DNA from: Bacteroidota bacterium
GTDB lineage: Bacteria > Bacteroidota > Bacteroidia > Bacteroidales > VadinHA17
Direction: 5' to 3'
Assembly (NCBI GenBank): GCA_029552825.1
Contig: JAKPDL010000169.1
Span: 1-44,570, forward strand
DNA length: 44,570 nucleotides
Shown: one piece after another, positions 39,422-40,818 of the stretch
Numbering within the stretch: the stretch's first letter is position 1
Layout of the letters: each line of letters opens with the position of its first letter
Translations under genes and position numbers: made by a program
The notes under the pieces: model-generated
Seen by the model: the letters and a program-made list of their open reading frames with translations, nothing else
Databases searched by the model: none
Told to the model about the DNA's origin: nothing

Positions 39422-40384
39422 ATGAGAGAAAACATATACTTCTGGGCAGGTTTTATAATCCTTATAGCTGTAATGCTGGCGCTGGATCTTGGAGTTTTTC
39501 ACAGAAAGCTTCACAGAGTTGGTGTCAGGGAAGCTCTCAGATGGAGTGGTGTCTGGATTAGTATTGCTCTGGCTTTTGGGGTTGTGGTTTATTTTGATTA
39601 TTTGAGAGAAAGCCCTGCAGTTGCAAGGATAAAGATACTTGAATACCTGACGGCCTACCTGATCGAGTATTCGCTGAGCGTAGATAATATATTTGTTTTT
39701 ATACTGATCTTTTCGTATTTCGCTGTTGATGCCAGATATCAGCATAAAGTTCTGTTCTGGGGCATTATAGGAGCGATTGCGATGAGGGCAATATTCATAT
39801 TTGCGGGGGTGACCCTCATTCACAAGGTTCACTGGGTTGTGTACATTTTTGGCGCTTTCCTGGTTTATTCGGGTATTAAGATGCTCTCCCAGATAATCAG
39901 GAAGATTGTTCCGGAAGTTGAACCTGAACGAAATCCGGTGATAAAATTTTCCAGGAAATTTATAAGAATTTCAGAGTCAGAAAGAAAGGACAGATTTTTT
40001 ACAAAGATAGATGGGAAGTTATTTGCTACTCCATTATTTCTGGTTTTGCTGATAATTGAATCATCCGACCTTATTTTTGCGGTTGACAGTATACCTGCAG
40101 TTCTGGCCATATCTGATGACCCATTTATTGTTTTCACTTCCAATATTCTGGCAATACTCGGTTTGCGATCACTCTATTTTGCAGTTTCGGGCATAATGAA
40201 GTATTTCAGATATCTTAAAACCGGGTTGTCGGTTGTATTGATTTTTGTTGGCCTGAAAATGATTTTTGCAGAAGCAATAAAGAAGCTGGAAGTGCCTGTT
40301 TACGTGTCTCTTATATTTATTGTTCTGATTCTGGGTTCATCAGTAATTCTATCAGTGGTTATACCTGACAGAAACAAGAAATAG
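39422..40384 (+). CDS. TerC-family integral membrane protein (Alx/TerC type)
   Basis: 320 residues with about 9 transmembrane segments. Family motifs are AVMLALDLGVFHRKLHRVGV, AYLIEYSLSVDNIFVFILIF with the conserved Asp in the membrane, GIIGAIAMRAIFIFAGVTLI, and FLVLLIIESSDLIFAVDSIP with a second acidic cluster, then TSNILAILGLRSLYFAVSGI. TerC/Alx proteins export Mn2+ or load metals onto exported enzymes; tellurite resistance is an older label. No metal-responsive leader such as a yybP-ykoY riboswitch is visible upstream. The tRNA-Val array promoter begins 37 bp after the stop. Confidence 0.94.
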   Translation: MRENIYFWAGFIILIAVMLALDLGVFHRKLHRVGVREALRWSGVWISIALAFGVVVYFDYLRESPAVARIKILEYLTAYLIEYSLSVDNIFVFILIFSYFAVDARYQHKVLFWGIIGAIAMRAIFIFAGVTLIHKVHWVVYIFGAFLVYSGIKMLSQIIRKIVPEVEPERNPVIKFSRKFIRISESERKDRFFTKIDGKLFATPLFLVLLIIESSDLIFAVDSIPAVLAISDDPFIVFTSNILAILGLRSLYFAVSGIMKYFRYLKTGLSVVLIFVGLKMIFAEAIKKLEVPVYVSLIFIVLILGSSVILSVVIPDRNKK

Positions 40385-40421: not shown

Positions 40422-40453
40422 TTTTGCATAAATAAAAATGTAGTCTATATTTG
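40422..40453 (+). promoter_or_regulatory. Bacteroidota promoter of the tRNA-Val array
   Basis: TTTTG (40422-40426) and TATATTTG (40446-40453) are 19 bp apart, a full consensus match. The extended string TATATTTGCACTCG is identical to that of the M23 promoter at 15092. Transcription from about 40459 would run through both tRNA-like units and the intact tRNA to the terminator at 40795. Confidence 0.8.
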
Positions 40454-40518
40454 CACTCGTTTTTTTAAGGTCTTTGACTGGAAGGATTTTTTCGACAACC
40501 GCAGGAGAAATATTGCAG

Positions 40519-40597
40519 GGGCGATTAGCTCATCCCGATAACTATCGGGAGGTTCAGAGCATCCCGACTGCAAGTCGGGAGGGTTGGCGGTTCGTTG
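40519..40597 (+). repeat. tRNA-Val-derived unit 1 with palindrome-substituted D-loop and anticodon arm
   Basis: It shares GGGCGAT-TA-GCTC with the intact tRNA-Val. The D-loop trinucleotide GTT is replaced by the perfect 18-nt palindrome TCCCGATAACTATCGGGA (40533-40550). The D-stem closes with GAGC. The anticodon arm is replaced by the 19-nt hairpin TCCCGACTGCAAGTCGGGA (40562-40580). Homology resumes through the variable region and T-stem (GGCGGTTCG) and stops in the T-loop, followed by a poly-A linker. There is no 3' T-stem or acceptor strand, so it cannot fold as a complete tRNA. No standard gene call covers it. Confidence 0.9.
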
Positions 40598-40618
40598 AAA
40601 AAAAAAAAAGAAAAATAA

Positions 40619-40697
40619 GGGCGATTAGCTCATCCCGTTAACTATCGGGAGGTTCAGAGCATTCCGACTTTCAATCGGGAGGTTCGCAGGTTCGTTA
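40619..40697 (+). repeat. tRNA-Val-derived unit 2 with palindrome-substituted D-loop and anticodon arm
   Basis: It starts exactly 100 bp after unit 1 and 96 bp before the intact tRNA. The D-loop insert TCCCGTTAACTATCGGGA (40633-40650) differs from unit 1 by one base, which breaks one pair. The anticodon-arm hairpin TTCCGACTTTCAATCGGGA (40662-40680) keeps a 6-bp stem with one G-U pair and a 7-nt loop. It then reads GGTTCGCAGGTTCGTT and ends in an A/G-rich linker. As in unit 1, everything after the T-loop TTCG is missing. Confidence 0.9.
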
Positions 40698-40714
40698 AAA
40701 GAAAGAAGAGATAA

Positions 40715-40789
40715 GGGCGATTAGCTCAGTTGGTTCAGAGCATCTGCCTTACAAGCAGAGGGTCGGCGGTTCGACTCCGTCATCGCCCA
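40715..40789 (+). tRNA. tRNA-Val (anticodon TAC)
   Basis: 75 nt with a complete cloverleaf: acceptor GGGCGAT/ATCGCCC, D-stem GCTC/GAGC, anticodon stem TCTGC/GCAGA with loop CTTACAA (TAC at 40750-40752), T-stem GGCGG/CCGTC (one G-U) with loop TTCGACT, and discriminator A. CCA is not encoded. U33 and A37 are standard. It decodes GUA/GUG and, with modification, other Val codons. It is the last unit of the roughly 100-bp array and is followed by a terminator 6 bp downstream. Confidence 0.97.
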
Positions 40790-40794
40790 CAGTG

Positions 40795-40818
40795 CCCCGC
40801 CAAAAGCGGGGATTTTTA
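40795..40818 (+). terminator. Rho-independent terminator after tRNA-Val
   Basis: A perfect stem CCCCGC/GCGGGG around a CAAAA loop (40795-40811) is followed by ATTTTTATTTAT. It closes the tRNA array transcript. Confidence 0.9.

Follow-up and report, generated by a model that had tools for sequence, protein, structure and literature searches.

Genomic islands and phages that integrate into tRNA genes use integrases, regenerate an intact tRNA and leave a plain tRNA fragment behind. For one of the stand-alone GIY-YIG proteins considered below, the closest solved sequences are those of UPF0213 proteins (PDB 1ywl, 1zg2), for which we know of no link to tRNAs or palindromes. SegB of phages T4 and T6, which may be regarded as the closest working parallel to the elements presented here, is a free-standing GIY-YIG homing endonuclease encoded in a tRNA cluster (PMC13096335, PMC2988022), and in the cited part of one account its association with tRNA genes favoured no particular isotypes (PMC13096335). 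REP elements are described, in the sections cited, as short palindromes that go together with a small nuclease-type gene, the RAYT (TnpA-REP) transposase (PMC2817692, PMC8266576).

The array studied here lies in the window, i.e. the whole 44,570-nt stretch of Bacteroidota DNA that was analysed, and consists of two hairpinned tRNA-Val fragments followed by an intact tRNA-Val gene. With a probability of about 0.58, it is a nuclease-less array, non-autonomous or a relic, of a tRNA-targeting GIY-YIG mini-element that would act by break-induced recombination in a SegB-like manner. As far as the cited parts of the SegB descriptions go, the elements resemble SegB in the position of a GIY-YIG gene between tRNA genes and in an ORF end that, here often, overlaps a tRNA copy. 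Unlike the phage-borne SegB they are chromosomal, hairpinned pseudo-tRNAs are not among the SegB features described there, and the nuclease lineage here tracks the tRNA isotype. With the REP/RAYT systems, as portrayed in those sections, they share palindromes beside a small nuclease-type gene, arrays and nuclease-less copies, and repeats flank the nuclease gene as well; they differ in having a GIY-YIG enzyme instead of a tyrosine transposase and palindromes embedded in tRNA copies. As with tRNA-integrating islands and phages, an intact tRNA appears to be regenerated and a tRNA fragment left, but hairpins replace loops here, in contrast to the plain fragments of those elements.

A search of the open-access full text of PMC found no description of hairpinned tRNA copies, or of GIY-YIG genes linked to tRNAs, in Bacteroidota, and this presumed family of small mobile elements on tRNA genes is apparently undescribed so far. 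If the reading is true, it would account for broken tRNA copies at many Bacteroidota tRNA genes and would suggest a role for small stand-alone GIY-YIG genes, which are numerous in some genomes. It would also provide a naturally occurring system for testing, with a selfish nuclease that is apparently adapted to essential RNA genes one isotype at a time. The duplication of tRNA genes and errors in the assembly and annotation of their loci are further topics on which it has a bearing.

The tRNA-Val array

An earlier note on this DNA had reported three units with a common start, only the last being a tRNA, and this is confirmed by the sequence and the tRNA calls: GGGCGATTAGCTCA starts at 40519, 40619 and 40715 (spacings of 100 and 96), and ARAGORN and Rfam made no tRNA call for units 1 and 2. 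The claimed layout, an 18-nt palindrome in the D-loop and a 19-nt hairpin replacing the anticodon arm, can likewise be read from the letters, as can the retention of the D-stem strands, the variable region and GGTTCG in both units, which end alike at GGTTCGTT. The features are as follows.

40422..40454, + strand: putative promoter of the tRNA-Val locus (TTTTGCAT from 40422, TATATTTGC from 40446; by inspection), a motif which we take to be a Bacteroidota-type promoter
40519..40596, + strand: pseudo-tRNA unit 1, 78 nt, with acceptor 5' strand, hairpinned D-arm, hairpin for the anticodon arm, variable region and T-arm start (from sequence)
40533..40550, + strand: D-loop hairpin of unit 1, the 18-nt palindrome TCCCGATAACTATCGGGA, between A14 and G18G19 (from sequence)
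40562..40580, + strand: anticodon-arm hairpin of unit 1, the 19-nt TCCCGACTGCAAGTCGGGA, exactly replacing the anticodon stem-loop (from sequence)
40597..40618, + strand: A-rich linker/leader 3' of unit 1 (from sequence)
40619..40696, + strand: pseudo-tRNA unit 2, 78 nt, layout as in unit 1, 87% identical to unit 1 (from sequence)
40633..40650, + strand: D-loop hairpin of unit 2, five outer pairs intact, one inner T-T mismatch (from sequence)
40662..40680, + strand: anticodon-arm hairpin of unit 2, with one T-G pair and one C-A mismatch (from sequence)
40697..40714, + strand: A-rich leader 5' of the intact tRNA-Val (from sequence)
40715..40790, + strand: intact tRNA-Val(TAC), Rfam 71.7 bits (ARAGORN/Rfam)
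about 40795..40817, + strand: terminator-like stem and T-run (by inspection)

Judged by inspection only, all three copies sit between one promoter and one terminator-like stem. The stems of unit 2 are weaker than those of unit 1. When folded as single-stranded RNA, unit 1 has an advantage over its shuffles (z -3.2), which is weak for unit 2 (z -1.8); in the minimum-energy fold of unit 1, the two hairpins pair with each other. The array is neighboured by an ORF resembling a membrane protein (39422-40384) and one resembling a large secreted protein (from 41235), and the window holds no GIY-YIG trace at E up to 10. A known RNA family was rejected for the units, as the tRNA alone reached an Rfam threshold in the window, and so was a defence system, for which the PADLOC matches were weak and partial.

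Copies beside other tRNA genes of the same genome

Unit 1 matches ten places in the 3.38-Mb genome: the pair in the window, an array at tRNA-Ala(GGC) that spans the ends of contigs C99 and C125, and an array at tRNA-Gly(GCC) with a 54-bp period and the D-loop hairpin only. Partial same-isotype copies were found in the own flanks of 11 of 39 tRNA genes (blastn, E up to 0.01), upstream at Ala(GGC), Asp, Gly(GCC), Leu(TAA) and Val(TAC) and downstream at Arg(ACG), Cys, Gln(CTG), His and two CAT-anticodon tRNAs; foreign-isotype tRNAs, compared with the same flanks as a control, matched in 1 of 195 cases. By eye, some downstream copies (Cys, His, one CAT) are without a clear hairpin of the window type, and two tRNA-Ser loci look similar that the blastn flank comparison did not find. 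A single tRNA-Val-derived repeat spreading genome-wide is out, since each unit copies the tRNA that it adjoins.

The palindrome YCCCGAN{4,8}TCGGGR occurs at 38 places per strand, compared with 11 for the reversed control, and a large share of these places, though not all, lies near tRNAs by eye. The genome has one small GIY-YIG gene, placed directly after a CAT-anticodon tRNA and followed by a remnant of that tRNA; two further PF01541 matches both fall in long frames.

Some minor observations concern the same genome. Contigs C99/C125, C2, C157, C232 and C107 terminate at or near hairpin or tRNA-copy arrays, which may be structures that short-read assembly fails to cross. The end of C107 (L052) and C81:8045 (L053) have hairpin repeats of a similar style, with no called tRNA seen adjoining. 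In tRNA-Ser(TGA) and tRNA-Ser(CGA) (L039, L044), the natural long variable arm TCCCGAGTAATCGGGA equals the stem of inserted hairpins, and it is a possible source of these.

Hairpins in relatives and across the phylum

Related units were analysed by means of sequence patterns and stem pair counts. Pattern A stands for the D-loop hairpin and pattern B for the anticodon-arm hairpin, both requiring the TCCCGA/TCGGGA core. Searching 98 relatives, with the own genome counted among them, gave pattern A in 16, of which 15 belong to the window's genus; pattern B was present in 29 of 395 Bacteroidota genomes. The reversed controls gave 0 matches in the 98 and in the 395 genomes, which, together with the ten places matched by unit 1, argues that the unit structure is more than chance. 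A collection of 84,980 species yielded at least 117 stretches with pattern A; among the matches listed, 116 are Bacteroidota by title and one belongs to an Actinomycetota draft genome. The core, which the patterns themselves require, is thus common across the phylum. Named isolates with units, again among the matches listed, include Algoriphagus, Flavobacterium, Muricauda, Leeuwenhoekiella, Belliella, Gelidibacter and Mesonia, and one locus (L133) lies within a one-contig genome. The Actinomycetota match (L230) is probably mis-binned; its contig bears the title Solirubrobacterales, and the 8 kb analysed contain no called tRNA on the same strand.

The units adjoin tRNA genes and derive from them locally. 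Among the listed matches, 80 of the 117 pattern A loci are annotated; 70 of the 80 have a tRNA on the same strand within 600 bp (67 of them downstream) and 22 a GIY-YIG gene within 1 kb, with none in the other 58; for pattern B the figures are 28/30 and 15/30. The acceptor strand of the hairpinned 5' fragment is identical to that of the neighbouring tRNA at 7 of 7 positions in 85 of the 97 usable loci among the matches listed (20 of 117 were dropped for having no downstream tRNA within 700 bp), compared with a mean of 5.1 and a maximum of 11 after shuffling. The hairpins occupy the same two tRNA positions beside about a dozen isotypes.

Comparison of hairpins shows that their stems are maintained. 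In 17 anticodon-arm hairpins, from loci reached by unit-1, tRNA or GIY-YIG searches and not by the hairpin patterns, the outer and inner pairs differ by matched changes (T-A/C-G, C-G/T-A, A-T/C-G). Of 34 distinct pattern B hairpins, 32 have a Watson-Crick pair at the first inner position (shuffled mean 13.6, maximum 21); the D-loop hairpins of pattern A are paired in 22 of 23, a small margin over shuffling (mean 17.1, maximum 22). Many copies with compensatory stem changes, which the earlier note had proposed as a check, thus exist in relatives, and its scenario of palindromic inserts in two loops of a tRNA copy followed by tandem amplification is borne out. Its single palindrome family was rejected: stems vary by isotype, and tRNA-Lys, -Leu and -Phe loci have other stems (e.g. 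TTCCGC/GCGGAA) at such positions. In several loci the hairpins border the copied part of the tRNA.

A phage origin is not favoured: pattern A has no match in viral contigs, and one GIY-YIG protein (L131) has none in 50,697 phage records (tblastn at 1e-5). Pattern B occurs in 8 viral stretches, and these eight IMG/VR contigs (L391-L398) could represent host DNA or provirus ends that flank a tRNA.

The tRNA-Val(TAC) locus within the genus

The tRNA-Val(TAC) gene was located in 40 of 55 genomes, and the best 30 of the 40 loci, the window among them, were read. Units are present between promoter and tRNA in 8 of these 30 loci (window included), one or two in each and all with palindromes; the remaining 22 have no units, and none of them has a matching palindrome. 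A GIY-YIG gene follows the tRNA in 3 of the 8 loci with units, one of the three genes having an internal stop, and in 0 of the 22 without (L387 has no downstream DNA). A TAnnTTTG promoter element lies 18-21 bp before the tRNA in 18 of the 22 unit-less loci; one locus of the comparison (L368) has only 64 bp of upstream DNA. The units of L376 are of the double-hairpin type seen in the window. Whether or not a locus carries units, the anticodon arm of its intact tRNA-Val is of one kind, so the hairpin is not simply an immunity at a cut site inside the tRNA, and this candidate is weakened.

Two loci (L380, L384) have an extra leader before the tRNA, which may represent decayed units. In both tandem units of L376, a palindrome is nested inside the D-loop palindrome.

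A GIY-YIG gene linked to the tRNA copies

While inserts and tandem copies had been read correctly in the earlier note, it missed a GIY-YIG gene that accompanies the copies in relatives, the gene being absent from the window. A GIY-YIG domain is encoded by the ORF that comes after the hairpinned 5' fragment at tRNA-Phe loci; at one of them (L086), this ORF precedes another copy of the promoter and then the intact tRNA. PF01541 was found in 4 of 4 proteins of relatives (E 1.8e-10 to 1.3e-12), and the GIY-YIG motifs align across 24 proteins of the genus. With the protein of the tRNA-Phe loci as query, matches were obtained in 30 of 55 genus genomes; 20 of the 30 loci contain a called tRNA, in 17 cases within 150 bp of the ORF.

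Two layouts recur. In the downstream type (Met, Lys, Val, Ala, Arg, Gly), the intact tRNA is followed by a terminator-like stretch, the GIY-YIG gene and a 3' remnant of the same tRNA, which often has a hairpin for its anticodon arm; hairpinned 5' units sometimes precede the tRNA. In the upstream type (Phe, Asn, Pro), the order is promoter, 5' remnant with D-loop hairpin, GIY-YIG gene and intact tRNA. A copy of the preceding tRNA follows within 330 bp in 43 of 54 GIY-YIG ORFs with such a tRNA (in L196 and L207 the copy is a whole second tRNA) and starts at or before the GIY-YIG stop codon in 27 of the 43. In 42 of the 43, the own tRNA scores higher than each of six foreign isotypes; foreign tRNAs gave weaker matches to the same regions in 69 of 324 comparisons because tRNAs share arms.

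PF01541 was surveyed over 148 genomes, with up to 24 matches in one genome, a count that includes other GIY-YIG proteins. From the best-scoring matches 60 small-ORF regions were taken, long ORFs and near duplicates being skipped; in this non-random sample of GIY-YIG genes, a tRNA is found no more than 400 bp away from 18 of 73 ORFs, which belong to 17 of the 60 loci, and in all 18 cases on the strand of the ORF. For random positions drawn from the same DNA, the corresponding count is 470 of 87,016 (0.54%). Flanking direct repeats of at least 30 bits were found at 31 of 51 single-copy loci (the 60 minus 8 tandem ones and 1 with short flanks) and at 1 of 168 random positions. Eleven of the 31 are tRNA-linked and 20 have no tRNA within 400 bp. 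At many of these 20, the repeats are palindromic by eye, and a composite built from one of them matches 31 places in the genome it comes from and no place in three other genomes.

In three proteins of 84, 94 and 102 aa, the domain fills nearly the whole length with no separate DNA-binding region, leaving little room for such a part as compared with SegB-type enzymes. The NCBIfam intron-endonuclease model stays below cut-off, and PHROG homing-endonuclease models match one of the three. The solved sequences closest to the L131 protein are the UPF0213 entries 1ywl (E 5.5e-5) and 1zg2 (E 0.019).

Nuclease lineage and tRNA isotype match. A tree was built from 80 columns of 136 distinct GIY-YIG domains, 78 of them with a tRNA (rows with X, long ORFs and short matches were dropped), and 57 of its 133 inner branches are drawn open; 27 isotype changes were counted on it, against a mean of 55.4 and a minimum of 48 in 300 shuffles. 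Isotype is shared with the nearest relative of less than 80% identity in 48 of 78 cases (shuffled mean 7.8, maximum 17); the number falls to 38 of 78 below 60% and to 20 of 78 below 50% identity (shuffled maximum 19). The tandem copies within L135, L136 and L274 are non-independent. No same-strand tRNA lies within 450 bp in 58 of the 136 rows, and 40 of these form one clade with other palindromic repeats; tRNA targeting is therefore not general for this protein. It is as if GIY-YIG proteins served palindromes in Bacteroidota in the role that RAYTs have elsewhere.

Two arrangements may be added. In L135 (G362:C224, about 560-1700), three tandem units of GIY-YIG gene and pseudo-tRNA with a 358-bp period follow tRNA-Arg(TCT). 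The motif GTCTCGC, which resembles the 3' end of tRNA-Met, stands directly before the GIY-YIG ORF at several different tRNAs (e.g. L114, L116, L119, L123).

Proposed origin and alternative explanations

The sequences directly show the layouts, the presence or absence of units among relatives, the maintenance of hairpins, the local derivation of each unit and the agreement between nuclease and isotype. We infer DNA cutting, a recombination route, mobility, a role for the hairpins and the former presence of a nuclease gene at the window array. A full element would comprise a stand-alone GIY-YIG gene and a copied part of its target tRNA gene (358 bp in the one tandem case measured); the copied part would be the 3' half and terminator if the element lies downstream, or the promoter and 5' half if upstream, with a hairpin closing it where the anticodon arm or D-loop should go on. 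The nuclease may cut the cognate tRNA gene or a sister copy, and recombinational repair over the copied tRNA part would yield an intact tRNA and a hairpinned pseudo-tRNA. Through repeated events or unequal exchange, tandem arrays could then arise that include or lack the nuclease gene, and loss of this gene would lead to arrays like that of the window. Points that count against this reading are the lack of any GIY-YIG trace in the window, the 58 of 80 annotated pattern A loci with no such gene within 1 kb, the tRNA-less GIY-YIG rows and the isotype match at under 50% identity, which hardly exceeds the shuffled maximum. The hairpin might end the homology, disable the copy as a tRNA (or shield it from cutting), or be the recognised structure itself.

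Type III toxin-antitoxin loci have a layout that tandem units beside a nuclease gene resemble, and the units could act as transcribed structured RNAs, much as the earlier note had considered with its RNA on a tRNA scaffold. They might serve as decoys for the GIY-YIG protein or for a different enzyme that cuts tRNAs, counter such an enzyme in the manner of an antitoxin RNA, or form a structured leader tuning tRNA processing. This would suit the one promoter and terminator seen by inspection around the array, the stems retained through compensatory change, the exactly chosen D-arm and anticodon-arm positions and the better-than-shuffled fold of unit 1. An RNA role is nevertheless unlikely, given the weak fold of unit 2, the joining of both hairpins in the minimum-energy fold of unit 1, the coming and going of units among relatives and the 58 of 80 annotated pattern A loci, among the matches listed, without a nuclease within 1 kb. 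If REP/MITE-like palindromes simply entered tRNA copies, with the GIY-YIG genes as separate passengers or general palindrome actors, hairpins at two exact tRNA positions with stems differing by isotype would not be expected, nor would the copying of the own tRNA by each unit and the tracking of isotype by nuclease lineage; such an origin is quite improbable, even though the required core recurs across the phylum, a palindrome sits within a palindrome in L376, and most of the repeat-flanked GIY-YIG loci (20/31) are without a nearby tRNA.

Tandem duplication of tRNA genes is common, and the decaying stems of unit 2 would agree with extra copies silenced by selection and hairpins arising as by-products. 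The same two hairpin positions at about a dozen isotypes, the compensatory changes and the linked nuclease make plain duplication very unlikely. An assembly artefact from collapsed tRNA repeats is scarcely credible: the draft genome does break at a similar array (C99, C125), but the window array is internal to a 44.6-kb contig, and the same structures recur in independent assemblies, including the one-contig genome and named isolates.

Within the preferred reading of a tRNA-targeting GIY-YIG mini-element, the pattern would be placed among free-standing GIY-YIG elements as a variant, although there is a fair chance that it forms a separate class. More tentatively, and with considerable doubt, this mobile class might consist of isotype-tied GIY-YIG lineages for which a hairpin-capped pseudo-tRNA (as DNA or RNA) serves as address and homology arm, the target tRNA being regenerated, and the wider family might also move interspersed palindromes of Bacteroidota, as tyrosine transposases do for REPs. 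In the tRNA-less GIY-YIG clade (L301-L360, e.g. L341, L351, L309, L315), the genes lie among repeats that begin with GTCATTCCCGC or TTCGACTGCGCTCA, and among others.
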